Shown here piece by piece: positions 6,371-28,544 of a DNA stretch of 28,802 bases. Source of the stretch: a virus. The stretch lies in IMG/VR virus record IMGVR_UViG_3300035239_000037, positions 1-28,802 of that record, one strand, 5' to 3'. The position numbers were made by a program, and so were the translations under genes. Numbering within the stretch: position 1 is the stretch's first letter; each line of letters opens with the position of its first letter. The notes under the pieces were generated by a model. The model saw only the letters and a program-made list of their open reading frames with translations, made no database searches and was not told where the DNA came from.

Positions 6371-9300
6371 TCAGAATGAAGCTACTGCTCGTAGATCCTG
6401 AATCTTGGGAATATATGCAGGGTCATCCGTCTTCATAACAATCTTAATAGCAAAGGAAGAGAATTCTGTTAAGTCCTCTTCACTGTATCTCAATTCTTGA
6501 TAAGAAGATTGCTTCTCAAATTGACCGGAGATACTATTTTCTGACGTAGCAATATCATTGGATTGGTCAGAATCTCCAGTACCATTAAAATATTCCCAGT
6601 TAATATCATCAAAGTTTTGCTGTGACGCTGCAGGTTTGATCTTATAGAATACTTTAACATTTTCTACATCTTGGACATTTAATGTTAAGTAAACATTAAT
6701 AGAAGATGCGGGATTATTAATAAAGATTTCTTTAGTGACATATTTTGAAGCACCAGAAGTATTGACAGAACCATTTTCTGCAACGTAGTCAACGCCTTGA
6801 CTAAATGACATGTCACTAACTTCTGCAAATTTAGTGGTTTCAAAAGATGATCCATCAAAGTCAAGTAAATCACCTACCCTGAAAATATCAGTAACTTGAT
6901 CTGATGTCTGACTTTGCCTTGCATAATCACTACCCAAAGTAATTTTATTTGTGAAGTTATTATTAATGGGTTGCTTATCATTTTCTAGAGTTAAAATTTT
7001 AGTTTTAGAGTCCCAAGAAATTACCTTACCACTAATTTTATTTTCATATTTTTCGCTTCTAATGGATGGGTTGATAGAATTTACAGTTGCTCCAACAACA
7101 AAAGTAGGTACTTGTTCAAAAACACCGGTATTAGCAACAGTAACAGTAAATGTTTCATAATCTCCGCCGCTAGCAGATTGGGTACTAAAGAATAACTCTT
7201 CTCCTACTGTAAACTGCAGGGAATTTTTAATTTTAACATAAACATCATTATTAATAATCCTCAAGACTTCAGATTCTGCTCCTGATGTTTGTCCAGTAAC
7301 ATTTTGTCCGAGAGATACTGCAATATCATCACCACCAACGCCATCGTTGTTACCAGCAACTTCAAACTTGTATATTGGATATACTTTAACAACTTGATAC
7401 TTTTTACCAAATCTATCTTCAGAACCTGTGGCATTGTCTACACGGTTAGATATAGTTTTTACCGATGCAGCGCGTAAATCAATAACAGGAGAAAGATGAG
7501 AAAATTCTGAAGAAAGATTAATTTTATATTGTAAAGAATTGCCAGTATCATTTACAACTTCATTAATACTCGAAGCAATCATTTTCTGATTTAAGAAATA
7601 TTGCTCCTCATTCAAGAAAGTAGTCTCCATAGGAGTAACATCGTATGAGGCATAAGTTGATGTAGAAGAATCTACTGGAATTACATTTGTAGTCCTAACA
7701 AAACTATCAATCTTTGTGTTTGATAACTGTAAATATGGAATTTGTGCATAAAGTTTCTCGTACTTTCTATTATAAGATGCAAGAATACTATTTCCTCCAC
7801 CTAATCCAGTAGCAGCTGCCCTGGAAGGACCAACAATAGTATAAGTATCAATACCAGAATTAGCAACAGTATATAAGGATGATTCAATATCAATTTCGTT
7901 ATACCCAGCAAAGTCATCTACACCACGGAAGAATACTTTGGAATTACCCAAACCTTCAAATCCATGATCTCTATGATAAACCTTAACAATATTGCTGTTG
8001 TTTTTAAACAATGCAGATGTTGCTGTACTATTAGCTAATGCATAAGTTTCAAATGCATCTGATTCTAATTTCTCGAATCCGATATCAGCGTTAGTAATAT
8101 TTAATTCTGCAACTCTAGAGATATCAAATTCTGCTCTATGAATACTGAACTTAATGTCTTCAAATAAATCTTCACTCCAGTTATCAGTGTTTTGTGACTT
8201 GAATACAGATCCAAGCAGAGGTTGAGCATTCACAACTAAACCAGAAGAAATATCAGTCTCTCCTAATCGTGAAGCCCAGATTTCATATTCGGTATCATCA
8301 CACTCAATATTGATTGCGTATTCGGTATTATTCTGCAAGTATACCGGGTAATCAAAATTGAATCTGGTAGGCGTTGTAGATCTAACAGAATCTCCTGTAT
8401 CAGAAGCAATACCCATTCTTACTGCAGGTTCATCTATAATAAGTTTAGACTCGATGATAGCGCCTGTAGCACCGTTTCCAGAACCTCTAACCACAATAGA
8501 AGGTGGTTCTGTATATCCTCTGCCACCTAAAGCAACTGCTGCATAGTAAATCTGACCGTTAGAAACTTTTACAGAACCTGTAGAGGTACTTCCTCCAGGA
8601 AGTTGAGGACTTTCTACGGTGATAGTAGCACCTTCGTATCCGGAACCTAAAGTAGTAACATTAAGGGCACTAACTTTGCCAGAGTCTTTTGCGATCTTTA
8701 ATCCAATAGTAGCATTATTAGAATTATTGAATTGAGTAACTGAAGTAAGAACTATATCTTCATTAGCAAAGAATGAACTACCATTATGGTTACTTAATAC
8801 AAAAGTGTATACTTGCTCATTTGTAATATCAATTTCTCCATTACTTGATGCTACCACCTCAAAATTATTCTTATCTAATACTTTCGCGATAGGACCAGAA
8901 GCAAGAGACCTTGAACCAGTAACATACTCTCCAATATTGATGGTGATATTACCAGAAGAGAATACCTTAAGTAAGGTATCAGGATATAAAGTAACTTGTG
9001 AACCAGGCAGAATATACTTACTTGGTTTCTCGCTCTCAATATTAGTCAGATAGACTCTTAAAGGAATAGTAGAACTTTTCTTGGAGAAAAACAGATCTAT
9101 TGCAGTAGCAAACATACCACCATCAAAGTTCTCTACTCTGAAAGTTTGGGCAAGAGGATTCGGTCTAGATTTGTTTTCAGTGTTACTATCAATTGTCTGA
9201 ACGCCTTCATTTGCCTTGAAAATGGCGGGGGCAGTTGAGATAATAGAAGCAGGATTCTCCGGGAGAATACCGGTTGCATAGAACTTAACTTCTGCGTAAC

Positions 9301-12300
9301 TATCTACAGAATCTTTATCACTATCAGTTGAACTAGTTGTAAATCTAATGTTCTTGGCACCGGTAGAGAAGTATAGTTCTTCTGTTGTAGTATCATACTG
9401 CATGGTGTTGACATCACCTGTCCATGATGTATTCATTTTTGGAGCAAGACCTGCAGGTATTAAAATAATTCCACTTGCATTGCCATATTCATCAGTAGTT
9501 AAAGAACTATTAAATGTGGTTGACGAGTTTCCTGCAATCCCAGTAAATCTGGAGTCTGGATTGACCCAACGCCCAATAGATTTTTTATCCATGAAGACAT
9601 ACAATTGTGTCTTGGGTTTTAATCTCTTAAGAACAAACTTGACCGGGATTGACCTTGCGAAAAATCTCAACGAGTTAGCAACATTAGTCCCATTAATTGT
9701 TTTATAACCTACCCCTTTAGCAATTTCATTGTTTTGGGGACTTACATTAGAAGAACTCGAAACACTAGCAGAGTTTACTGTTGATTTAGAAATATCGCTA
9801 TTGCTCTCACCAAAACTGTTAATATTATAGAAAGTCTTGTTAACACCAACCCAATTAATAATAAAGGAATTATAAATGCTGGCAAATGCCGATCTAACAT
9901 CTGACTTGCCAAGGAAAACAGAAAACAGGTTAGTATTGTTTTCAGTTACTAATGGAGCAACCGTTGTGTTATACCATTGATCGATATTAGGAATTAATGC
10001 AGCGTCGCCTACGTATTGTAAAATAACAAATGGGTTTGGATTAATAGTTTTAGTTGCAAATTGATTAGAAGCATAAGAAACATTACTGTATGGCAATGTA
10101 ATTACGTCGTTAGAATTTTTATATCCTGACAATGATCTTTGATCTTCGCGACTATTAATTTCTACAAGAGTGAAATTATCTTCTTTAGATTGTGGACGTA
10201 AAACAGATTGCTGCGGATCAATAGCACACAAGTAATCTAAAGACTTGACATTACCAACTTGATGAGTTTCAAAATTGTCAACCACAAAACCACTCTTTGT
10301 TTTGTCAATACCCAAAACATCTTTTACTTGCATGTTTAGTGCTTGCTGCTCAAGAATGCTCAACGTAGTGTAATACTCAAGACGCTCAATACGCTTCTCC
10401 AGTTTACCAATGTCCTTCATCGTATATCTACGATTATCGACAGGAATAATCCTTACATCTTTACTTGACTTGGTAAACGCAGGAATATAAACATAATACA
10501 GAGGAATACCATCTTCAATAATTTCTGGTTTTGATGGGTTCAGTGAAGAGTTTCCAGTTTTAGTTAAAAACTCTCCTTTTTTATTCAAGAATATACCATC
10601 AATTCTATCCAGATATTGAGACTCACTAAACTTCATCGTGTATGGAAGCAGTCTGCTAGATGAAGGAGTACTTGAAACAGAACCACCATCACCAATAAAA
10701 CTGATATAATCTGCTTGTGATAGTAATGAAGTATCTTGGAAACCAGTAATAATTGTATTGGAATCAACTTTAGGTCTAAAGTCAATAACATTTTTAAGAT
10801 TTACAATACCGTATACAGTACTATTGAATGAAGGAATTTTATCTGCAGGTACACCCGCTTCATGTATATAAGAATCAACGGTACAAAAATCTCCTTGAGA
10901 ATGTTGGAAATAGTCAAAGGCAACAACTAGTTGACCTGAAGGAGTAGAGAATCCAGGCTTCAATACAATTCTAGAAATATCATAGAATGTTTCTCTTTGA
11001 CCATCGTCAAAAGTGAAGTGGTTTGTGATATCTGTACCAACAACTAAATTACCATTTACATCAACTGTTGGTGGCGAAGATGCAGAACCTTCGTAGATAT
11101 ACTTAATAGCATAAACATCGGAATAACTGAATGACTCGGTACTCTCATCATCGTAGTTAATTCCTCTTAAAGGAATAACTCTATCACCAGATGTTCTGAT
11201 AACAATTCTTCTATCTGGAATAGATGTTTTTAACTTTGGTCTACCTTTTGAAATTTGAATTGTAGCAGTTAATTTTAATTTGGGGAAGTTAGAAACATTT
11301 GATCCGAAATAATTACTCGGGAATCCAATAGTAATACTACCAGATGATAATCCAGAAGTTTGATCAGTAGTATTTAAAATATTTACATACTCTGGTCTCA
11401 AGAAAACGACATCGCCAGTTTCTACTTTATCAGAATCGCCTTTATCTAAAACGGTAACAACAAAATCTTTTTCATTGAACTCAACAAATCTTTGAGTACC
11501 AAAATCTAACTGTGCAGCAAATGTAATAGTACCACCACTACTAGATCCAGTAGCTACAAAATCTCTTCTTGTGTAATATTCAATTTTAGTATCTTCTGTA
11601 GTACTAATTAAACTACTTACTTCCTTACTTCCGGTAGGAAATACTAATGAAGAAATAGCAGAATTATTAATAGTAGGACGTAATCTTACTACTGAAGATG
11701 CACTTACGCTTTCTGGAAGAGCTCCGTTTAAATAAATTCTTGATTTAGTAGTGCCTTGACCGTCTGTTGCATAATCAACAATAAATTTATGAATGGTCCC
11801 TGTAGAATCACTGAATTGGATGGCATCTCCTTGAACTAGAAATGCTCCAGCACTTACGCCAAATCCAGTGCATTCTAGGAATTTATAACCTTTGGTTCCA
11901 GAGAAAGTAAATTGTGTTACTGGTGTAGATGTTGCATAAGTAGGATCAACTGTTTCTATATCTGCAGTAAATACATTGCCCGAACCATAAACAGAATATA
12001 ATGATTTAACGTTATTAGCAGAAAAATTAAGAACTGTGTTTTTAAACAGCACTGGCAAAACTTGTGCTTCAATAGTATAAGATCCGGTAAATTCAATTAC
12101 CGGGGGAGATACGTAATCCAAAGAAACTGCATCTCTATTTACAATCTCTACTTTGTATAGAGTTCCGCCACTAACACCCACAGAAATATCTGATGACTGA
12201 TATGAACCAACAAAGACTTCTGATGGTTCATATTGAACTCCATCGATGGAAATTTTTGCAGTATTTGAATATCCGGTTCCTTGACGTGATACGACAAAGT

Positions 12301-14515
12301 GAGAAATAGTATTTTCTTTAGCAATTCTTAAAATACCACCTTCTTCGTTGGTAATTGTTTCTCCAGATTTAAAATTACCATACAAAGTTTTTACATATAA
12401 ACTTCTGCCCGAAGATAGGAATCCATTACTATTACCTTCAATTACTCCGTAAGCACCACTTTCAGAACCAACAATATATTTACCAGGACTAAAGTCTGAT
12501 GTAATTAAAGAGTCAACTAATAACCTAGTAAAAAATACTGGGTTGAAATATGCGAGATTGAAGATACCATTATAAGTAGATTCTCCTGAAGACAACCTTC
12601 CTTTAGAAATAACTACATCTGTATCAGGATTGAATCCCGTTGCATTTTTTAAAAGAGTAAAATCTTTTGGTTTTGCTACGCCAACTAACGGAGTGATAGT
12701 CTGATCATAGTCAACAATAAATCCAATCTCATTAATTTCTTGTTGGGCATCGGATTCTGTTTTGTAAAGAAGTCTTCTTCTCGTACTTACATTATCATCA
12801 TACTCAATAAAAATAGTTTCTAAATAATCTTTTCTTCCAGCAACAGTTAGTTGTAAGAATTGAGCATTAACATCACCTACTTCTGGTCTTGTTACTTTTG
12901 CATATGAAATAGTCTCTACACTCTTTACTGTAGATACAGCATTGGTAGATGTTCTTGTGTTAACAAAATAAATGTTCTTAAGGTCTGCACGATCTGAAGG
13001 AGTATTAGGTTCAATACTCGATTCGTCAATCAGACCAAGATCTAAATCTGAAAACAAGTAAATTGTTTTGATTGCATCATCTTTACCAAAAGACTTACCT
13101 CTTCTTTCTAAAGTCTGTAGATAATTAGTAGAAGATTCTAAATTATTTGCTCCAATAGTTCCATCATTATATACTGAATTCAGGAAAATTGTTGGATATG
13201 CAGTAAGTTCAGAACCTTCTGCATTAAGTGGTACACTGTTATAAACATTAGTAATATTAAAACTAGCAAGACTATTGGTTTTAATACTAATGTTATCTCT
13301 AACTAATGTATCTCTTGCTTTATCTAATTCTAAATATTTTGTTTCCTTATTAACAATTTCATATCCACGGACATATGCTTTTCCAGGACCAACAGAAACT
13401 GTTAGTTTTTCTGATGCTTCTGATGGTGTTAAACCATTAACATTTCCATCAACACCTAATGAATAAATTCCTAAATTGCCATCCTGCTGATAATACTCTC
13501 GGATTTCAGCATCAAAATTATCAACAATATAATCACCAGACTCATCGTATGTTCTTCTTGCTAAAGTCTCTTCTATCAGACTATAATCAACTTTTCTTAC
13601 CTGACGCTCTACAACACCATTTTTGATGGAAAGCAGTTGAATAAAATTCTTATCGGGAGTTTGGTTATACTCGTATTTTACAAGTTCTAATTGAATTTGT
13701 AATCTATGTGCTCCTGGGGATGCAAAATTAGAAGATCCCGCAGCATTATCATATAAACTAGAATCTTTTTCTGGTGTTACTACAGACTCAAATACATTAA
13801 AACCAACTTTTATTGATGGTGTTTGGGTATATCCAGAAACAAGAATAAGACCAGCATCATTGCGAACAAAAAATCCATTGACAAAGTAGATACCTTCTTC
13901 TACTTTAACAGCAGAACCATATCCCATGGCAGGACTAGTAACAAACGTCACCTCTCCTGTGTCTGGATTAGTTACAGAAATACTTGTAGGTAGAACACTG
14001 CCATCAGTACCAACAACAAGCAGAGGGCTATTAACGCCATCGACAATTTCCAGAGTTTCGCCTTGACGGAATGTTTCTTCGTCTCCGCCATCACCTGCTG
14101 TAAGATACTTAACATAAATTGTGTCATTACTATTGTCTGTCGCTTTAGTTATAGCAAGAACTAAAGCAGACACTCCAGAAGATAATCCAGAAATTTTCTG
14201 TCCAACTAAATCAGAAATATCATATTTCTGATACACAATTTCGCCATCAATACTGATAGCAACTTCGGAAACTGATGATAGTTTTACAAAATCTAATTTT
14301 GTATTCAGACCAATCTCACCAGGAATAACCAGATCTCCCTGCTTAAACTGATGTTTGCCATAATTTTCAATCTGATTCTGTAGAATCGATTGAATACTAT
14401 TCAACTCCCTACCCTGAATAGGGTAAGAAGGTCTGAATAATACCTTATAGAAGTCTTTCCCCGAATCGTAGTCGTCAAAATAGGGAATAGAATTAAGATT
14501 AGTCTTCTGTGGCAT
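6371..14515 (-). CDS. Giant DUF4815-type virion protein (2714 aa)
   Basis: Residues 9-65 (IPYFDDYD, FYKVLFRPSYPIQGREL, QSILQNQIENYG, F-K-GDLV) match my memory of the conserved start of DUF4815 proteins from tailed phages, including cyanomyoviruses. Further marks are a helical segment at about 1362-1405 (KLEKRIERLEYYTTL), the PLAQTFRV segment near 1785 followed by beta sequence (TAIDLFFSKKS), and a YPVYLQNNTEYAINIE segment near 2055. GxGY-type beta repeats occur near 744, 1957 and 1997. The C-terminus is a beta domain ending IQDLRAVASF. It follows gp8 with a 39-base gap, where T4 has gp9-gp12, and none of those is recognisable here. It probably builds the peripheral baseplate or fibre attachment layer. 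The family is fairly sure; the exact role is not. Confidence 0.85.
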   Translation of the reverse strand: MPQKTNLNSIPYFDDYDSGKDFYKVLFRPSYPIQGRELNSIQSILQNQIENYGKHQFKQGDLVIPGEIGLNTKLDFVKLSSVSEVAISIDGEIVYQKYDISDLVGQKISGLSSGVSALVLAITKATDNSNDTIYVKYLTAGDGGDEETFRQGETLEIVDGVNSPLLVVGTDGSVLPTSISVTNPDTGEVTFVTSPAMGYGSAVKVEEGIYFVNGFFVRNDAGLILVSGYTQTPSIKVGFNVFESVVTPEKDSSLYDNAAGSSNFASPGAHRLQIQLELVKYEYNQTPDKNFIQLLSIKNGVVERQVRKVDYSLIEETLARRTYDESGDYIVDNFDAEIREYYQQDGNLGIYSLGVDGNVNGLTPSEASEKLTVSVGPGKAYVRGYEIVNKETKYLELDKARDTLVRDNISIKTNSLASFNITNVYNSVPLNAEGSELTAYPTIFLNSVYNDGTIGANNLESSTNYLQTLERRGKSFGKDDAIKTIYLFSDLDLGLIDESSIEPNTPSDRADLKNIYFVNTRTSTNAVSTVKSVETISYAKVTRPEVGDVNAQFLQLTVAGRKDYLETIFIEYDDNVSTRRRLLYKTESDAQQEINEIGFIVDYDQTITPLVGVAKPKDFTLLKNATGFNPDTDVVISKGRLSSGESTYNGIFNLAYFNPVFFTRLLVDSLITSDFSPGKYIVGSESGAYGVIEGNSNGFLSSGRSLYVKTLYGNFKSGETITNEEGGILRIAKENTISHFVVSRQGTGYSNTAKISIDGVQYEPSEVFVGSYQSSDISVGVSGGTLYKVEIVNRDAVSLDYVSPPVIEFTGSYTIEAQVLPVLFKNTVLNFSANNVKSLYSVYGSGNVFTADIETVDPTYATSTPVTQFTFSGTKGYKFLECTGFGVSAGAFLVQGDAIQFSDSTGTIHKFIVDYATDGQGTTKSRIYLNGALPESVSASSVVRLRPTINNSAISSLVFPTGSKEVSSLISTTEDTKIEYYTRRDFVATGSSSGGTITFAAQLDFGTQRFVEFNEKDFVVTVLDKGDSDKVETGDVVFLRPEYVNILNTTDQTSGLSSGSITIGFPSNYFGSNVSNFPKLKLTATIQISKGRPKLKTSIPDRRIVIRTSGDRVIPLRGINYDDESTESFSYSDVYAIKYIYEGSASSPPTVDVNGNLVVGTDITNHFTFDDGQRETFYDISRIVLKPGFSTPSGQLVVAFDYFQHSQGDFCTVDSYIHEAGVPADKIPSFNSTVYGIVNLKNVIDFRPKVDSNTIITGFQDTSLLSQADYISFIGDGGSVSSTPSSSRLLPYTMKFSESQYLDRIDGIFLNKKGEFLTKTGNSSLNPSKPEIIEDGIPLYYVYIPAFTKSSKDVRIIPVDNRRYTMKDIGKLEKRIERLEYYTTLSILEQQALNMQVKDVLGIDKTKSGFVVDNFETHQVGNVKSLDYLCAIDPQQSVLRPQSKEDNFTLVEINSREDQRSLSGYKNSNDVITLPYSNVSYASNQFATKTINPNPFVILQYVGDAALIPNIDQWYNTTVAPLVTENNTNLFSVFLGKSDVRSAFASIYNSFIINWVGVNKTFYNINSFGESNSDISKSTVNSASVSSSSNVSPQNNEIAKGVGYKTINGTNVANSLRFFARSIPVKFVLKRLKPKTQLYVFMDKKSIGRWVNPDSRFTGIAGNSSTTFNSSLTTDEYGNASGIILIPAGLAPKMNTSWTGDVNTMQYDTTTEELYFSTGAKNIRFTTSSTDSDKDSVDSYAEVKFYATGILPENPASIISTAPAIFKANEGVQTIDSNTENKSRPNPLAQTFRVENFDGGMFATAIDLFFSKKSSTIPLRVYLTNIESEKPSKYILPGSQVTLYPDTLLKVFSSGNITINIGEYVTGSRSLASGPIAKVLDKNNFEVVASSNGEIDITNEQVYTFVLSNHNGSSFFANEDIVLTSVTQFNNSNNATIGLKIAKDSGKVSALNVTTLGSGYEGATITVESPQLPGGSTSTGSVKVSNGQIYYAAVALGGRGYTEPPSIVVRGSGNGATGAIIESKLIIDEPAVRMGIASDTGDSVRSTTPTRFNFDYPVYLQNNTEYAINIECDDTEYEIWASRLGETDISSGLVVNAQPLLGSVFKSQNTDNWSEDLFEDIKFSIHRAEFDISRVAELNITNADIGFEKLESDAFETYALANSTATSALFKNNSNIVKVYHRDHGFEGLGNSKVFFRGVDDFAGYNEIDIESSLYTVANSGIDTYTIVGPSRAAATGLGGGNSILASYNRKYEKLYAQIPYLQLSNTKIDSFVRTTNVIPVDSSTSTYASYDVTPMETTFLNEEQYFLNQKMIASSINEVVNDTGNSLQYKINLSSEFSHLSPVIDLRAASVKTISNRVDNATGSEDRFGKKYQVVKVYPIYKFEVAGNNDGVGGDDIAVSLGQNVTGQTSGAESEVLRIINNDVYVKIKNSLQFTVGEELFFSTQSASGGDYETFTVTVANTGVFEQVPTFVVGATVNSINPSIRSEKYENKISGKVISWDSKTKILTLENDKQPINNNFTNKITLGSDYARQSQTSDQVTDIFRVGDLLDFDGSSFETTKFAEVSDMSFSQGVDYVAENGSVNTSGASKYVTKEIFINNPASSINVYLTLNVQDVENVKVFYKIKPAASQQNFDDINWEYFNGTGDSDQSNDIATSENSISGQFEKQSSYQELRYSEEDLTEFSSFAIKIVMKTDDPAYIPKIQDLRAVASF

Positions 14516-14554: not shown

Positions 14555-16432
14555 TCAGAACTCGATGACTAATTTGATATCCTCAATTTGATCAGCCGCT
14601 CTGGTAATTAGTCTTCTGTTCTCTATGTATATGAGATCACCAGAGTTATTTTGAATTTCTGGATTTGCTATACCATCTACAAAAATAGAACCAACTAATT
14701 GAGTTCCGTCCGCAAGAGCAACGTCAACCGTTCCTGCTGAACCAGAACCAGAACCATCAATGGTGTTAGAAGCATTGGGTTCAAATGCTCTTACAACCCC
14801 AGTGTCTTTATGTAAGGTAGGTGTTTGAATATACTTAAGAACGCCGCTTCCAGGGGTTGCGGGAGTAGGTGCAGGACTTCCAGCATCAAGAGTCCAAGAA
14901 ACTACAGTACCATGGGCAGTACCACCACTCACAGTTTGACTGATCGCTTCGTCAGAAATATAATTTCCTGTTGCTCCAGTAACTTTAACCGCTTTTAATC
15001 CATTTAAAGTATCTGCAGTCGCAAACGTAGTAGATCCAAACTCATAAGGATCTTTGATAATACCGATACGGCGGAAATCATTATCTACAGGGAAGTCGCC
15101 AGCATTCTCGATGAAAGTGAGACGAATATTTGTCATAACTCTTTTGGAGTTAAGTTCCATCTCAAAGTCAGAACCATGTCCGCCTTGTGGGGGCAATACA
15201 GGATCTAATGCAGGAGTATCAGTTGCTGTTACTGTTTCTGAAACTGTCAGTGCGCTATCGGAGAATAATCCAATTGCTTCTGTACTTCCGGCAGTACCTA
15301 AAGGAACACCGGTAACGAAAGGAATAGATGCATAAGTATAACCAGATCCTGGTGCGATTACTTTAGCAGCAGTAACTACTCCTCCACCGACTGTAACTTC
15401 CGCTACACCACCTGCACCATCTCCTACTACCGGAGCAAAGAATGTACCCGATACAGGAGCAGTGAGGGTGCCTGGGTTGCTGATTAAAGCAATATCCAAA
15501 GCACCATTAGTTGCAGCTGCTTCAGTTGCTACTCTAGATGTTTCTCCATCAGCATTGATTGGCATAAAATCAGTAGACAAGAATGCCAATACATCATCGG
15601 TTGGGATGGTGTACATGTACTTCCAGACGTAAGAATCGTCAGGAGCAGTGAAAATGCCGTTCGTGTAAGAACCTAAACCAGCTTGAGGGTTTGTTCTGGG
15701 TTCGTGCTGAATATTAACACCAGATGGGTTTGCTACCGATTCTCCATTATAGAGGCACTTGAATACCTCATAAGATTGATTCATAATGTAGAATTTGGCA
15801 TTACCAATGGAGGTTGCTCCTAATGATGCCGTTTTGCCAATCTGTCCGCCACCAGCTGGGGTAGCGAAATAATCAGGTTTCCACATATCAAACTTGGGAT
15901 TGTTAATAATATCCCAGTTATAACGTCTTACAACGTGTCTTGCATAAGAACTTGTGATTCTTTTAGCAGCAATAATATCACTATAGATACCAAATTTTTC
16001 GGTTTGGTTATCGAGAGGAACAGGAGGAATATTTTCTGTAGAGAATCTGTATACTCCAGTTGTTGCTGTTACTGATTTGTTTGCATTGGTTGTCTGATTA
16101 TAACCCGTTAACGTCGAACCAAGAGCAGGAGCGTCAGTAACTAAAGGACCGATGCTAGCAAGAAGAAGAGAATTGTCAAGAACTTTAGTTACAGTTGCTT
16201 TGAATGTAGCTCCTGCCCAAGACGCACCAACATAGACTCCATCGCCAACAGCAAACGAGTCTGCTCCGTCTGCTGAATAAATTTCTAGATAAGACTCCCA
16301 TGCCTGGGGTCTACCAACAAAGAAGTACATTCGACTCCTTTCACTGCCAGTGTCACTAGAACCTTCTGACAGGGATTCTAGGAACTGCTTTGCATTAAAA
16401 ATTCTGAACTTTTCCGAGATAATAGCAGCCAT
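14555..16432 (-). CDS. 8: Baseplate wedge protein gp8
   Basis: A 625-residue homologue of T4 gp8 (334 residues, from memory), the dimeric wedge protein that binds gp7 and gp10. The N-terminal SEKFRIFNAKQFLESL and the YFFVGRPQAWE segment parallel the T4 start (TSKFRTEKMLNFY, then FGRSEPW). Central motifs include RYNWD, YEVFKCLYNG and DDSYVWKYMYTIP, the last matching GYVWEYLFEIP in T4. The C-terminus YIENRRLITRAADQIEDIK resembles the T4 end (YMENRPP...DQTEEI). Extra length comes from a beta insertion at about 55-110 and a Gly/Thr-rich region at about 290-420 with a GSGYTYASIPFV repeat near 363. A doubled TATAAATA late promoter lies about 30 bases upstream. No good Shine-Dalgarno was seen. Confidence 0.93.
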   Translation of the reverse strand: MAAIISEKFRIFNAKQFLESLSEGSSDTGSERSRMYFFVGRPQAWESYLEIYSADGADSFAVGDGVYVGASWAGATFKATVTKVLDNSLLLASIGPLVTDAPALGSTLTGYNQTTNANKSVTATTGVYRFSTENIPPVPLDNQTEKFGIYSDIIAAKRITSSYARHVVRRYNWDIINNPKFDMWKPDYFATPAGGGQIGKTASLGATSIGNAKFYIMNQSYEVFKCLYNGESVANPSGVNIQHEPRTNPQAGLGSYTNGIFTAPDDSYVWKYMYTIPTDDVLAFLSTDFMPINADGETSRVATEAAATNGALDIALISNPGTLTAPVSGTFFAPVVGDGAGGVAEVTVGGGVVTAAKVIAPGSGYTYASIPFVTGVPLGTAGSTEAIGLFSDSALTVSETVTATDTPALDPVLPPQGGHGSDFEMELNSKRVMTNIRLTFIENAGDFPVDNDFRRIGIIKDPYEFGSTTFATADTLNGLKAVKVTGATGNYISDEAISQTVSGGTAHGTVVSWTLDAGSPAPTPATPGSGVLKYIQTPTLHKDTGVVRAFEPNASNTIDGSGSGSAGTVDVALADGTQLVGSIFVDGIANPEIQNNSGDLIYIENRRLITRAADQIEDIKLVIEF

Positions 16433-19400: not shown

Positions 19401-22400
19401 ATTCAATATAAACCTCTCCAAACATTTTAAATCCAGCTGGATGGGTATTATCCTTTACTACATTTCTCCAATTATTGATAGGAGTTTTACTTCTAACAAC
19501 ATATGAATAATCTTGATAAAAATCAGAATCAGTAATTCTTTGATTTACCGAACTTAATTTTCCTCTATCAGAATTAAATTTGCCAATAGTCCTTGTTCTG
19601 GTATTAATTACCGGAGTAAAGGAAGTTTTAGTAACAGAAATTACATTTGCTGTTTTTCCTTTTGATCTTCCATTAATAGGATACCCCTCTCGGAATACTC
19701 CACTGATATTAACTAAACGTAAAATATTAGATCCTTTATTCCATCCATTGGATGCAACTTTACCAGAAGCAAATACAACTCCATTTATTTTTTGCTCAAT
19801 ACTCTCCCCATCACCAAATGCATTTAATTCAAAATTAGATAAAGTCAGTACTTGCGGGGTTTCGTAGTAAGATTGAATAGAATCATCTTTGAAATAGAAA
19901 GTACCATTATTAATAAATCGGATGCTTTGAGGAATTCCAATATCATTAGACTCGAAGAATAGTTTATTATCAGTCTCAATAATATCAATTTTTGGTGTGG
20001 AATAATAATCCTTACCAGGATTTAAAATTTCTACTGCAGTAACAATACCATTATCAATTTTGACTGCTAACTCTAATCCAGTTCCGTCGCCGGAAACATA
20101 TGCTTTGGGTTTAGAATAATTTTGTCCCGCAAAATCAATATCTATTTTAGTAATAGAATTGGATGATGCATCACGAACCGCTTTTACATCAGCCTTATAT
20201 CCTGCCGCAGGAACAACACCTTCTACAGAAGGCAGAGATTTATAGTTTTCTCCAAGATTATCTAATACAATAGAAGCAATTTTGCCTACAGATCTACCTT
20301 TATACTGAATATTTCCAGATCCATCATATTGAGGTACATCATCCAAACTATAAACAAACTTGGTATCAGTTGTAAAGACAACTCTTTTACGACCAGCAAG
20401 AGGATCTTCCTTAACTCTTAAGAAAGAACTATTGGTATTTGTGGAAGAATTAGTAAGGAAGTAGTAATATGTGGTGTAGTTAACATTTTTTCTTTTAATA
20501 TCTCCAATATTTGCGCCATATCCTAATCTGATCCTAACAAATGATCCAGCATTTCCTGGTTCTGCCAACCCAACTTCTTTTTCTTCGGTGAATACATTAT
20601 AATTTGAACTAGTAGAAATATCTAAATACGAACCCAACATCGAAGGATGACTAGTGTCAAATTTGTAAAAGTAATATTTTTGAATATCTACAATAGGATT
20701 TGTTAAGAAATCAGTATTGTCTAAAGAAAATAATAGTCTATCATCTAAAGGATCAACATTAGATACTGATACAATTTTTGTAGGAACACTCTGATCTGGG
20801 AATGATGAAACTACTGTTATTTTATTTGGGTTAGTAGCATCAAATCCATAATTAACTACTAATCTATGTGTAGTTTCGTTATAAGAAACAACATATGGAT
20901 CATTAACAGTATTACCAATAATTTGGGTTCCTGGAGTAAATCTATATTTTGGTTGATATGAAGTTACTATAGAATTAGGAAGATGATTTACAGCAGTAGT
21001 CCCACCAACACCCCTTTCTAATGATACTTGTCTAGTGTTGGAATCTACAGACGTTACTCTAACAATCTCACTACCTACTGATAGCAAGTCATTTTCCGCA
21101 ATAGAGAATATTTTATCTAAAACAATTTCGGTTCTCTGTAATCCTAATCCAACAGCATTGACAGATACTAGAGGAATAGCAGTACTTGGTGCTGGGTATA
21201 CAGTAAGTTCTCCGACCATTTCTGGGTGAGATATACAAACGTAATAATATGTGCCTGGTGCTTGAGGAGCAAACGTAATAGTTTCTGCCTCGTTAGAAGA
21301 TCCATTATTAGTTACTCCTGTTGCAGCAATATATGTTGCTATCTCTAATGCAACACCATCTTCTTGTCTAATCGTAGTTGAATAATCAGAAACAATCCAA
21401 ATAACATGACCAGGTATTGGGTTTACAGTAAATGTAGACCCAACTCGCATATCATATCCAGGATTTGTTACACCGCCAACATCAAATCTAAATTGTGGTA
21501 AAGGTGCTCCAGGACCAGAAGTAGTTCCGCTTGCAGTAACTACTACACTATCAATAGTAACAGAAGTATCGATTAACTCTCCGGGAACAGTTGTGCGATA
21601 TTCAAACCAATCGTTATCCGTATCTTCTCCAAGGTAGATATGTTCAACACCATTGCTATCAATAAAAATATCATTTACAGCACCTACGAATGCTGTTACT
21701 GCAGCTTTATCCGCACTATCTACTTGGAAGAACCCAATATCATATAATGCAATGTTATCTGCATTCAACTGAACCATTGTCGGATCAATATCAGTATCAA
21801 AAATTGTAGGATCTGCTTTTAAAATACTAGATGGATTAATAGTTAATATATCATCACTAGTGTATCCAGAACCACCATCAGTAACTACAATAGATTCAAT
21901 TTGACCACTATTATCAAAATTAGTAGAATTTACGGTTACTGTTGCTCTCGCATTATCACTATCTCCAGCAGATCCTACAGTTTCTCTAACATTTGTGAAA
22001 TTACTGAAAATGAGCTCCACATTGTTATAAACTCCACCAGCATAGTCTCTACCAAGACCAACCATGGTAGAATCCCCAACCCCAGTATCATTTACTTTTC
22101 CTCGGAATGATTGTGGAGTAAGATCAACTTCTTGATAATCTTTCTTTGCAACATAGTATAATGTTTCGGTGACAGATTCATCAGGGTCAATTTGAATATC
22201 GACATCATCTCCTTCGGCAAAATCATGTACTCCTACAGTTTCTGCAATAGCAATAGATTCATTTACTGAAGTAATGTCTACTCCTTGACTCAAGTTAGTA
22301 ATAGCAACAATTCCTGAACCGGCAGTGTTTGCTAAATCACCACTCTTTAAAATAGTTTTTCCTTCGTCATAATTCAGATAATCAGAAAAATTACCACTGA

Positions 22401-25400
22401 TTACTTTTACTCTTACAGAATTTTGGTCAATTGTAGATGATAATACTGAAGAACTAGCAATTATGTTAGATGGGTCATCAAGAAGAACTAAATCTAATGT
22501 GGCATCTTTTGTATATGTACTACTCCTATTCAATAGTATATTCAAGACTGTCGAACTAGATTCGATTGGTGATCCAGATTCAAATGTATTATTAATTGCT
22601 CGCAATACAAATGTAGTCTCTTCAATAGTATCTCGAAGCAACTCTCCTGTAGCACCGGTTGATGGTTGCGTGATAGTGTCGCCAGAAAATGAGTAGAATG
22701 GTTGTGCTGACATCAATACTGATGCTTTAGTCTCTCTTGATTCTAATGATGTAACTGGTTTTCCAAAAGTAGCAGAAACTCTTCCTGTAGCACCAGTGCC
22801 GCCAGTACCAGAATTATTTACATAAACTCTTGAACCAACCGAAAAATTTGGTTGAGAATCTTCTACAGTAACTCCGGAAACAGAACCTCTAGAAATAGAA
22901 TCAATGATTGCAATTTCTGACTTACCATTCTGTTCGGTTCCTGTAATGAATAATCTCTTTGCTTCTTTTGGAATAGCATTTTGAGTAACATCAGACTGAT
23001 AGTTTGATTTTACTGGTAATGAGTAATAATTTTCACCAATGATGTATGGAAAGACCGGAACGCCAGTAGCATCAATTGTTAGAAAATATGCATATACTCC
23101 TCTGGGAAATTCTGGTGTTACACAAAATCTTCCGTTGTTAACATCCAATCGTGTTTTTCCAGTATCAACTGTTGGTGACCACTCATAGTCATCCACAAAT
23201 GTTCCCATTTCGTAAGGGGCATCTATCGGACCACCTACTCTGGATGATTTAATAGAATATCCACTTTCCATTTTGGCGATAGCGGAAGATGGATTTAATG
23301 GATTTTCATAACCATAAGGTCCATAGATGGGATTTCCATCATATGCATAACCTAAAATAGGGGAGTGAGTCTTTGCTGCAGTAGATTCTACTAATGTAGT
23401 AGTAGCAACGTTATCATTTAATCGTAATCTTAATCTTTTTGGATTAGAAATTACACCATAGTAATTTTTATCTCTATTATATCCAGGTACAACTAAACCG
23501 CCATTGTCATCAACAACAGTGTTAAAATGTCTGTTTTTTACCCATTCGCGAATATTTGCTTTAGCAGATGCAGAATTTGAAAATGCATCTGGAATTACTG
23601 TAACAACTACATTTTCTTGAGTGTAGAATTTACCACCAGAAAGTTTTTCCAGACTAATAATCTGACCCTGGGGAGAAACAACCGCATGATATTCAGCAAA
23701 TCTACCTTTGCCAGAAAAATCACTAATAAGAATTGCTGGAGATGCTGAATAATATTCTCCAGGATTTACAATACGAATACTAGTAATTTCTCCTGATGTT
23801 ACGATAGGTTCTAAAACAGCATCTCTACCACTAACAATCTCAACCGTAGGAGCAGATGTGTAATTAGTACTATCGGTACTGATAATGTCAGAAACAGTAT
23901 CACCAGTTAAAATAGCATCTGCTTTACCAGATACTTTATTAATTAAGATAAATGGAGGTTTTTGATATCCAGATCCCCTACGAGTAACCACAAATTCTGT
24001 GATAGGACCATATTCAATTAAATTTTCGTTTTTAAATCCAAATGCAATTGAACCATCAACAAAGAGACCGATATCTCTTCGAGGAGTTTTGTAAATTTCT
24101 GATGTAGTAGTTGTCTCTTTTGGAATAATTTTAAGAAGTTGTGGATCTGAAAGAGTTTCAGTAACCCCTGATGGTAAAATTTTTGTAGATGGGTATGAAG
24201 AAGTAGCAAAATAGTATAAATCATTATCTTCATAAATTGAACCAACTCCTGCAAGTACCTTCTCTAAAGCCTGTCCTACACTGGGATTTAGAGGAACTGA
24301 TGGACTATCTCCCGTAACATTCACCTTCCAGCGATAGTTCTTATCAGAATCACTGAATAAAAGTGGATTTGCAGATTCAAACCCTGGAGTTGAAACTTGA
24401 ATACGATCATTAACTGATGCATATGGATGAGCATCGTCAATAAGTAAAGTATTGAGAGTTCCGTATGCTAATAAAGAAACAATGCCATTAGGGGTAACAG
24501 ATTTTAATGTGGAGTAATTAGTAACTTCATCTCCTACACTATGAGTTCTATTAATTGTTCCTCGCTGTTTGATTACAAATTGGCGTGCATTCTTACCTTC
24601 ATACGAAATTACCTCGTTATTAATAACAATCACACCATTAGTATCATCCCATCCAAATGTAGAATCTACAGTAATAGTATCACCAGTAGTTTGAGCAGGA
24701 TCAACAATTCTATTAAGAACCGTTCTTTGAGGAATTACAAATTCTGAATTGATTGATTGTGGATTAACAACTAGATTAAATAACTGATCTCCATTATTAG
24801 AATCTACTGTATAGAAATTTTCGATTACAGCAGATGCATAATTCACATTAGAATTATTATCAGACTGTTGTACTACAGTTTGTCCTATCAACCATTCCGG
24901 ATTTCCTGAAAGAATCCTACATTGAATTACATAGGAAGAGTCCCAATCAGAAACTGAAGCTTTTAATGTTTGATCCTTTGGGTTATATGTGGTTGGGGTG
25001 TCATTATCCGATATAATAGTATTAAAAAGAAATCTAATAGATTTATCAGTTCCTTTTACTTTATAAAAATTAGAAATATTCTTGATAAGGATTCGCTTAT
25101 CTACATCCTTTTTGATGTATTCTTCTGGAAAAGATTCTAAATATTGAATTTCAAATGACTTTACAATAGCATATAAAAACAGGTGACTTAAATTATCAAC
25201 ATTACTGCCATTATCATGAGTAGTCGAATCTGAAGAAACAAATTTTGATTTGGAATACAAATCACCGAGTTGAGTAGTACCACTCACTCCTCGGGAAACT
25301 TCTAACAACTCTGTTGATGTTCTCTCTTTATAAAAACAAATTTCATTACCAATTTTAACATAACCATTTTTTAATGGGAACGAAGAGGCATCCGCTACAA

Positions 25401-25642: not shown

Positions 25643-27439
25643 TTACTCTGGATATACCGTGAACTTACTATTAGAAATGTCTACATCTAAATATAGACTT
25701 CTTTCTGCGACAATATCATTACTAGCAGGTTCTACCCTGACTTGAATTCTGTTGTCGAAGAAACTACCGAGAATGATGGTTAAATCATATAACATAATTT
25801 CACCTGTTGCATAATCAACGGTTCCTAAAGAATCATTCAACACAACTTTTTCACCAGTTGCAGGATCTATTCTATATAGGGCAATTTTTCCCTCCCTATC
25901 TTCAAAATAGACAGTGTAATTGGGATATTCACTGACTTTAAATCCAGTGCTTTGCAGTACAGGTCCATCACATGATTTTCTAAATGCATTTTGGAAACAT
26001 AACTCATAAAAATAAGTAGAATTTAACGAAGGATAAAAATCCTTACGCAACATAATACTTGTAGTATTTGAGTTGACAGACATATCAGATTCGTCAATCA
26101 CTCCCACATACTTACTAAATCTAAACTTGCCATTGAATTGTTCAGTTTGTGATAGATCGGTGTAATTATCTACTGCACTAATAACTTTAGATTTAATTTC
26201 TTCTGGGAATTGTGTAGTCTCTCTAGTATTGTAATATATCGAACTATTGATCTCGATATAAAGAACCGATGCATCTAAAATGTTTGGTGTAACAGATGCA
26301 ACAGAATAATCTTTAAGACCTTCAATAATTTGCTGTTTGGTGAATGTTGATAAAGAAGAACCACTATTTGGTTTTATGATAATCTTTACCGTACCATATT
26401 CAGGATATCTTTCTTCTTCTCCACCATATACAATGATATCAGAGACTGCTGGGTAGATCTTTCTTACAATCGCTGCATAATCTTTAGCAGTTACCGCTCT
26501 ATTTTGTGTTGCATACTGCTTTGGAGCATTAAACTTGATCTTATCGATTGTTTCAATAGCCGCTCCACCAGAAGCATTAGAAACAGTTACTACATTAGAT
26601 ACCACTACAGGGTATACTTGATCACTCTCATCAAGTAAAGTTCCCGCGAATGTAAACTGTGAAGCACCATTAGTTGCTTCTCCATTCGTAATTAAGTATG
26701 ATACATCAACTACCTGATCATTATCTAATGCCTTACCAATAACATTGTCGCCAAAGAATAACTGATACTGCTCATCTAATGATTCATCAACATAGAAGAT
26801 ATTATTTGTAGACGTAATATCGATAATAGTATCGATTTGATTATAATATACAAATGATGATGACGATGGAGATTCAAATACTCTCACTCTAATAGTGCTC
26901 GTATCGGTATTTGAATTTGATAGAACAAATTTTTGTTTTGATAATGAAGTATCAACTACAAATTGGTTAGTAATTAAATTACCTTCAAATAATGATACAT
27001 TATTAAAGAATGCCTCTCTGTTTTCCACAGGCACCTTAATATCATCAATTGCAACATATCGATACAATTGATCGTCAAATGTAGTAACGAATCCTGTACC
27101 CTTCTTGAGAATAATAGTAGAAGGTGCCGTACCAGGAAATGTTACTTTAAAATTAATACTTGCTTCTGGAGCAACAACAGACTTTGGTTTATATCCTAAT
27201 TGCTTCGCCAGTGTAATAACATTGTCTCTTAAAGTCGCAGACTCAAGAAATAATTCATTCGTCACCATGTTGGTGTTGAATGCAGTGTAATATGTATTAT
27301 ATGCTAATACATCTAATAGGTTTGACCAAACAGAACCTTCAAAATCAAAGTCAGTAAAATCTGTCCTCGACCTCAAGTAATCTTTGAGTTCTGTTTTAAT
27401 ATCGGTAAAATCTAAATTACTAACCTGAACGTACTTCAT
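25643..27439 (-). CDS. 6: Baseplate wedge protein gp6 (Baseplate_J family)
   Basis: A 598-residue homologue of T4 gp6 (about 660), the protein that forms the dimeric iris ring of the inner baseplate with gp7 and gp53 and is related to phage Mu/P2 gpJ. The N-terminal signature is clear: FTDIKTELKDYLRSRTDFTD, then SVWSNLLDVLAYNTYYTAFN and NELFLESATLRDNV in residues 10-75, followed by LAKQLGYKP. The J-like core includes FNAPKQYATQNRAVTAKDYA at about 305-325 and IIVYGGEE after it. The C-terminus is beta-rich and ends DISNSKFTVYPE. Its ATG overlaps the gp25 stop by one base (TAATG), and the giant gp7-position gene begins four bases after its stop, consistent with co-translation of interacting wedge subunits. 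Confidence 0.95.
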   Translation of the reverse strand: MKYVQVSNLDFTDIKTELKDYLRSRTDFTDFDFEGSVWSNLLDVLAYNTYYTAFNTNMVTNELFLESATLRDNVITLAKQLGYKPKSVVAPEASINFKVTFPGTAPSTIILKKGTGFVTTFDDQLYRYVAIDDIKVPVENREAFFNNVSLFEGNLITNQFVVDTSLSKQKFVLSNSNTDTSTIRVRVFESPSSSSFVYYNQIDTIIDITSTNNIFYVDESLDEQYQLFFGDNVIGKALDNDQVVDVSYLITNGEATNGASQFTFAGTLLDESDQVYPVVVSNVVTVSNASGGAAIETIDKIKFNAPKQYATQNRAVTAKDYAAIVRKIYPAVSDIIVYGGEEERYPEYGTVKIIIKPNSGSSLSTFTKQQIIEGLKDYSVASVTPNILDASVLYIEINSSIYYNTRETTQFPEEIKSKVISAVDNYTDLSQTEQFNGKFRFSKYVGVIDESDMSVNSNTTSIMLRKDFYPSLNSTYFYELCFQNAFRKSCDGPVLQSTGFKVSEYPNYTVYFEDREGKIALYRIDPATGEKVVLNDSLGTVDYATGEIMLYDLTIILGSFFDNRIQVRVEPASNDIVAERSLYLDVDISNSKFTVYPE

Positions 27440-28212: not shown

Positions 28213-28241
28213 ATTATACCACAAAATCAACCGCCTGCCAA
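28213..28241 (-). promoter_or_regulatory. Sigma70-like promoter TTGGCA-N17-TATAAT
   Basis: On the minus strand, TTGGCA at 28236-28241 (5 of 6 to TTGACA) and a perfect TATAAT at 28213-28218 are separated by exactly 17 bases. The expected start is near 28206, 17 bases before the ATG at 28189. The -35 lies inside the last codons of the PAAR gene. The sequence continues AATAACTATAG, which partly resembles a late box, so host-sigma and late recognition could overlap. Confidence 0.75.
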
Positions 28242-28544
28242 TACCGAGTGTGAACCTGATGCCATAACTGCAATACCACCAGGACCAAGACTTACCAGAA
28301 TATCCCCGATACGTGCTACTCCTCTTTTATTCACATATATTGTTAGAGATCCTAATGCAATCTGATCAATATGAGGAGATTTCTTTGGACAGACATGTGG
28401 TGCAGTTACATCTCCCACTTTTGCAGCAGGTAACTTATTAACTAATACTGTACCTATAGCACTTGTAATGGGTACTGGGAACCAACACCCATGTCCACTC
28501 TCGAAGTCGCCTAACCGACTTATTCCAGATCCTACTATCGCCAT
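28227..28544 (-). CDS. PAAR-domain spike-tip protein (gp5.4-like)
   Basis: A 105-residue PAAR-repeat protein. PAAR proteins form the sharp cone at the tip of the central spike of contractile tails (T4 gp5.4, about 97 residues) and of type VI secretion systems, usually holding one metal ion by His/Cys. Visible here are GDFESGHGCWFP (H18, C20), KVGDVTAPHVCP (H50, C52) with H58 after it, the IYVNKRGVARIGD strand-turn near 69-81, and GSHSVLAGG at the end with H99. Length and Gly/Val-rich strands fit the family. The start overlaps the previous stop by one base (TAATG), with AGGAGG ten bases upstream. No C-terminal effector extension is present. Confidence 0.92.
   Translation of the reverse strand: MAIVGSGISRLGDFESGHGCWFPVPITSAIGTVLVNKLPAAKVGDVTAPHVCPKKSPHIDQIALGSLTIYVNKRGVARIGDILVSLGPGGIAVMASGSHSVLAGG

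Follow-up and report, generated by a model that had tools for sequence, protein, structure and literature searches.

A predicted cupredoxin domain with a candidate copper site, inserted in a gp7-position phage baseplate protein and related to domains in other phage tail proteins

The stretch of DNA analysed here, called the window throughout, comprises 28,802 bases of IMG/VR virus record IMGVR_UViG_3300035239_000037. It encodes a 3046-aa virion structural protein whose gene is preceded in the block by a gp25-like and a gp6-like gene and followed by a gp8-like gene (Table 1). Because this arrangement follows the T4 order gp25-gp6-gp7-gp8, the giant ORF was assigned to the gp7 position, in agreement with an earlier sequence-only reading that had already used this label, which describes gene order alone. 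The same gene order is found in the Synechococcus phages S-CAM3, the closest isolate, and S-CAM1, whose homologues are 69% (over 3053 aligned positions) and 54% identical to the 3046-aa protein, respectively. The window also encodes a second giant protein of 2714 aa with a DUF4815 domain (6371-14515, minus strand), and a PAAR-motif protein adjoins the baseplate genes (28227-28544, minus strand).

Table 1. Genes, domains and candidate ligand residues in the window; residues are numbered in the 3046-aa protein
Feature	Residues	Positions	Strand	Evidence
gp6-like baseplate wedge protein		25643..27439	-	PHROG match and neighbourhood annotation
gp7-position virion structural protein, 3046 aa		16498..25638	-	PHROG 4406 (virion structural) and 2885 (baseplate wedge)
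YHYH domain	747-858	23065..23400	-	PF14240, E 1.5e-25, 90.8 bits
Insertion, ~208 residues	1275-1482	21193..21816	-	Absent in AG-345-P14, S-PM2, Syn1 and Sf-FR1 homologues
N-terminal part of insertion, family not known	1275-1356	21571..21816	-	Low-confidence alpha/beta prediction
Predicted cupredoxin domain	1357-1483	21190..21570	-	Family profile iE 1.1e-23 (profile itself contains the window copy); PDB profile matches; AlphaFold2 model; structure searches
Candidate first His ligand	H1411	21406..21408	-	Motif and copy alignment
Candidate Cys ligand	C1468	21235..21237	-	Motif and copy alignment
Candidate second His ligand	H1471	21226..21228	-	Motif and copy alignment
Candidate axial Met ligand (Ala in S-CAM3)	M1474	21217..21219	-	Motif and copy alignment
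gp8-like baseplate wedge protein		14555..16432	-	PHROG match and neighbourhood annotation

Within the gp7-position protein, the sequence-only reading had singled out H1411, C1468, H1471 and M1474 as a possible copper ligand set with C-x2-H-x2-M loop spacing, and both the residues and the spacing were found as described, in GHVIW (residues 1410-1414) and YYYVCISHPEMVG (residues 1464-1476). When 10 ORFs of the window were scanned, leaving out the partial ORF at its end, C-x2-H-x(2-6)-M occurred once. On composition alone (5 Cys, 22 His and 17 Met), the expected number of C-x2-H-x2-M motifs in the protein is about 2e-4, a figure that ignores the number of motifs a reader might notice. We consider the motif to be more than chance because profile and fold evidence point to a cupredoxin fold and because its residues are conserved among related copies, as set out below.

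Loci carrying related copies were chosen using the pattern [TAF][AP]G[TE]YYY[VIN], which does not contain the ligands, and then by likeness to the copy in P-SSM2, with the best 80 of 217 retained. After 13 of these 80 were dropped as core-sequence repeats, 67 distant copies (21-34% identical to the window), three close contigs and the window itself made up the 71-row alignment A3. A second alignment, A4, holds 48 of the 67 distant copies, with the ligand-less copy L026 among the 19 left out; loci from S-CAM1, S-CAM3 and other annotated records were left out of both. Searching PDB sequences with the A3 profile gave 84 matches at E ≤ 1, and the best 60 of the 84 were all cupredoxin-fold copper proteins, with rusticyanin first (E 2.9e-7), amicyanin (3.8e-6) and plastocyanin (7e-6), and with auracyanin, azurin, pseudoazurin, nitrite reductase and similar proteins also listed. 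When the profile was built without the GTYYY-C-x2-H-x2-M end (A5), the same search returned no significant cupredoxin: the overall best match was an unrelated protein (E 0.15), and the best cupredoxin, amicyanin, came eighth of 14 (E 1.2). Given this control, the sequence case is carried by the C-terminal third of the domain and the fold case by the predicted model.

Taken alone, the window domain scored below the gathering scores of both relevant Pfam families, at E 0.0012 and about 19 of 27 bits (18.9-19.3) for Cupredoxin_1 and at E 0.02 and 15.8 of 21.2 bits for Copper-bind. Copper-bind matched 52 of the 71 A3 members at E ≤ 0.01 (best 4.3e-8), and whole-protein scores above its 21.2 bits were obtained for P-SSM2 (23.3), L036 (22.9) and L043 (24.4), with no single stretch falling within the E-value limit. 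In single-sequence searches, the best match was copper nitrite reductase for the window domain (phmmer, E 0.011) and plastocyanin for the S-CAM4-type copy (E 0.0098).

The AlphaFold2 model of the domain (pLDDT 77.8 overall and about 86-87 near the ligand residues, pTM 0.73) predicts the Greek-key beta-sandwich of the cupredoxin superfamily, with C1468 at the end of one strand and M1474 just before the next. The order His...Cys-x(n)-His-x(n)-Met on a loop before the last strand, also characteristic of this superfamily, is present in the window domain. All 14 PDB matches found by Foldseek at E ≤ 0.001 were copper proteins of cupredoxin fold, at modest TM-scores (max 0.44 over the query) and rmsd near 10 Å. 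VIA-align placed the model best on rusticyanin (Z 9.8, 112 residues, 2.8 Å), and the 50 rows listed consisted of rusticyanin, copper nitrite reductase and laccases. Viral structure matches from adenovirus, pithovirus and poxvirus proteins ranked below the phage rows and were taken as general beta-sandwich likeness. The AlphaFold2 model, Foldseek and VIA-align thus all agree with the cupredoxin fold that had been proposed from the letters of the sequence, and the idea of a copper-protein-fold module within a baseplate protein is supported. On this evidence the window stretch is predicted, with high confidence, to have a cupredoxin fold.

Rusticyanin from Acidithiobacillus was the best PDB match both by profile and by model, and the conserved H, C, H and M of A3 fall on its four ligands, whereas its loop is C-x4-H-x4-M, longer than the C-x2-H-x2-M of the window; it is also a free periplasmic protein, unlike the phage domain. 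Amicyanin has the same C-x2-H-x2-M loop spacing as the window, its loop CTPHPFM appearing in a structure title, and the NCBIfam amicyanin model (TIGR02657) matched 52 of the 71 A3 members at E ≤ 0.01, but the window reached 18.1 of the 110.2 bits of its equivalog cut-off. Asn follows the first His in amicyanin, and Asn or Ser occupies this place in classic blue copper proteins, whereas the residue is Val in the window and Pro in 66 of the 71 A3 copies, a departure that counts against the copper reading.

A scan of cellular genomes found 76 relatives. Marine Bacteroidetes scored best against the P-SSM2-type query, at 34-39% identity (34-38% for the loci L103, L104 and L106-L111), followed by many ammonia-oxidising archaea, Acidithiobacillus and a few others. 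These Bacteroidetes loci encode secreted-type cellular proteins of the same GHPF...C-x2-H-x2-M type as the phage copies; one of them, L106 from Flavobacteriaceae, has an ORF of 161 aa that consists of this single domain and begins like a lipoprotein. The sequence-only reading had considered the coincidence with the plastocyanin of cyanobacterial hosts worth testing, and a special link of this kind is not supported: the plastocyanin loop is C-x2-H-x4-M, and none of the 76 relatives carried a cyanobacterial title in this one scan, whose narrow pattern may have missed plastocyanins because it required GxYYYxC. That a host plastocyanin gene was captured and fused into the baseplate is therefore highly improbable, the more so as rusticyanin and amicyanin both outscore plastocyanin, if by little, even though the nearest isolates have cyanobacterial hosts, plastocyanin is among the A3 profile matches and petE is known in cyanophages according to PMC3037559.

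To follow the candidate ligands through the family, copies were tallied in the window and in viral loci L002-L102; this census gave 141 distinct copies, of which 115 cover all four ligand columns and 26 were set aside. All four residues are kept in 107 of the 115, as the sequence-only reading required of homologues, and H, C and H in 108, figures that somewhat overstate conservation because the loci were picked by likeness to the P-SSM2 copy and because the extra census copies came from the A3 profile, which itself weighs the ligand columns. The eight exceptions are three HSAM copies and one each of HCNM, YSHA, FCHM, YASM and HCHA; two or three ligands are lost together in the HSAM, YASM and YSHA types. 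Within A3, M is kept in all 71 rows and H, C and H in 70, the sole exception being L026, which is without H, C and H at once. Ranked by weighted entropy with the lowest variability first, the ligand columns come 3, 7, 8 and 9 of 117. The HCHA copy, with Ala for Met, is that of S-CAM3, the closest isolate, and counts against the copper reading; a copy without the Met may still bind copper, since a Cu(II) structure of the amicyanin M98A mutant exists and was among the structure-search matches. The YASM copies (L026/L027, ORF residues 1326-1439) and the HSAM copies (L064, L065 and L070) would be useful natural controls.

These site-less copies are what would be expected if the domain were a metal-free scaffold, its fold retained for an Ig-like display or spacing function and its Cys, His and Met being relics or packing residues. 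Ephrins, which belong to the cupredoxin superfamily and have no copper, provide a precedent and illustrate that copper binding is not universal there. Like other display domains of phages, this one is exchanged between tail proteins. Free copper is in short supply in the host cytoplasm, the place where phage proteins fold, and this counts against a copper site. We nevertheless consider a metal-free scaffold unlikely, since the four ligands persist in nearly all fully covered copies despite the low identity of the 67 distant ones to the window, and since all four ligand columns rank within the first nine of the alignment for low variability. Copper binding in at least some phages is instead judged likely on three grounds: the site persists in copies that otherwise look unrelated, two or three ligands have gone at once in several of the copies that lack it, and the nearest known relatives of the family are copper proteins.

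Within the gp7-position protein, the domain makes up most of the insertion listed in Table 1. All four homologues without the insertion align up to residues 1267-1278 and resume at 1483-1485, while S-CAM1 and S-CAM3 align throughout; the last residue of the cupredoxin, 1483, lies just beyond the insertion edge. With residues 900-2100 as the query, 409 records of the phage collection matched, and among the 60 of these listed, 11 (S-CAM3 and S-CAM1 records) aligned in one piece covering 99-100% and 49 in two pieces covering 80-83%. The window domain as query matched 18 of 50,697 phage records. For the N-terminal part of the insertion, a 92-aa query found only four phage records, all S-CAM3, and its model had a mean pLDDT of 63.5, mostly 28-72 over residues 1275-1356. 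Judged from these alignments, the domain lies in an insertion that most of the listed gp7-position homologues are without, a point beyond the sequence-only reading, as are the spread and nesting of related copies described next.

With a P-SSM2-like copy (from AG-345-F15) as the query, 172 of the 50,697 phage records matched, and nearly all of the 60 listed among these were Synechococcus or Prochlorococcus phages. Copies were located at the C-terminus of the gp9 connector of S-SSM5, in the S74-tailed spike of P-SSM2 (whose genome has four matches), in S-CAM4 at the C-terminal end of a subtilase-like protein, and in P-HM1 and the podovirus P-SCSP2. Phage proteins of the Peptidase_S8 (subtilase) family with a cupredoxin are encoded at L098:2285-4333 (S-CAM4) and L100:1958-7456 (P-HM1). 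Among PHROGs, all 71 A3 members matched two families without an assigned function, and the gp9-type connector family was matched by 70 of the 71. At the level of sequence matches, many further tail proteins of phages carry a related copy. Seven of eight phage records tested have at least one copy, two of the weaker matches (E near 1e-4) being in Syn1; in the eighth, S-PM2, no copy was found at E ≤ 0.001. Two copies were detected in S-CAM1, one of which is split or partial.

This distribution bears on a copper version of the "Ferrojan horse", in which a metal-uptake receptor of the host would recognise tail-borne copper, to the benefit of adsorption. The precedent is an idea proposed for iron in tail fibres, whose HxH sites, as in T4 gp37, are covered in PMC11705849; there, paired His residues bind iron in a trimeric fibre that is not a cupredoxin, and the likeness to the phage domain is that of a metal in a tail protein. 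Conserved ligands and a location in virion proteins would suit such piracy. However, S-PM2, without a detectable copy, and S-CAM1 are both recorded on Synechococcus WH7803, so the module is dispensable on that host, and we regard copper piracy as quite improbable.

A second domain that may involve metal is present in the gp7-position protein, where a YHYH domain scoring well above the 25-bit curated gathering score of PF14240 lies about 500 residues away from the cupredoxin, as a separate domain. YHYH proteins are predicted to be tail-associated metal-dependent hydrolases in PMC7824862. In Actinomycetia phage DSL-LC01 the YHYH domain is interrupted by a cupredoxin. Using short signatures, YHYH was detected in 26 of 103 cupredoxin-bearing ORFs and not in the other 77, and in 17 of the 103 the cupredoxin has the N-terminal YHYH signature on one side and the C-terminal one on the other, representing fewer than 17 independent nesting events because many of those contigs are near-identical. 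In L043 (L043:86-8323, plus strand, ORF residues about 1209-1540), and likewise in L036, a full cupredoxin with flanking glycine runs sits inside an outer cupredoxin, just before the first ligand His of the latter, and the outer cupredoxin in turn lies within a YHYH domain. This split-cupredoxin pattern was found in 16 contigs, many of them near-identical. Going by these signatures, insertion of cupredoxins inside YHYH domains is recurrent, and the nested insertions, a beta-sandwich in a beta-sandwich in a third domain, are a clear case of domain mobility in tail proteins.

The same arrangement could suggest an electron-transfer centre, in which electrons would leave the copper site, possibly for the predicted YHYH metal site of the same or the enclosing protein. 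The ligand set is indeed that of electron-transfer cupredoxins, and the nested copies, allowing for their near-identical contigs, also speak for it. A hydrolase, however, needs no electrons, the two domains of the window protein are far apart in sequence, and most cupredoxin-bearing ORFs are without a YHYH signature. Electron transfer is accordingly a very improbable role, and the same holds for its extended form, in which marine phage tails would be copper redox devices whose cupredoxins, sometimes nested, feed the YHYH metal site in a copper-dependent attack on the host envelope at contact.

The reading we prefer is that the window encodes a cupredoxin-fold accessory virion domain, inserted in a gp7-position baseplate wedge protein, that would hold a single copper ion in a type 1 site formed by H1411, C1468, H1471 and, as a weaker axial ligand, M1474. 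Leaving its role aside, we put the probability that the domain is a copper-binding accessory virion domain, as the conserved motif and the predicted model suggest, at roughly 65%. The module appears to have spread among tail fibres, the tail-fibre connector, subtilase-like proteins and YHYH proteins of marine phages, and its virion context is seen in the gp6 and gp8 neighbours, the gp9 C-terminus and the PHROG tail families. Outward display at the point of host contact is the preferred role because the copies are mostly found in tail fibres, connectors and baseplate proteins: the domain may be a rigid display module, locked by metal and placed on the baseplate exterior, that is active in first contact with the host envelope. 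This host-contact role is put forward tentatively; copper occupancy, surface exposure and the part played in adsorption are what we infer.

The cupredoxin fold is already known, and a search of the open-licence literature, in which several terms were narrow and which had subscription papers and preprints outside its scope, found no description of a cupredoxin in a phage tail; what was not found in that literature is a conserved, mobile and probably copper-bearing virion module. If the site holds copper, some phage virions, including those of S-CAM1 (Synechococcus) and P-SSM2 (Prochlorococcus), would be copper metalloproteins, and copper would join the metals carried by phage tails. Adsorption would then gain a testable metal dependence, and phage particles would be a possible copper ligand in seawater.
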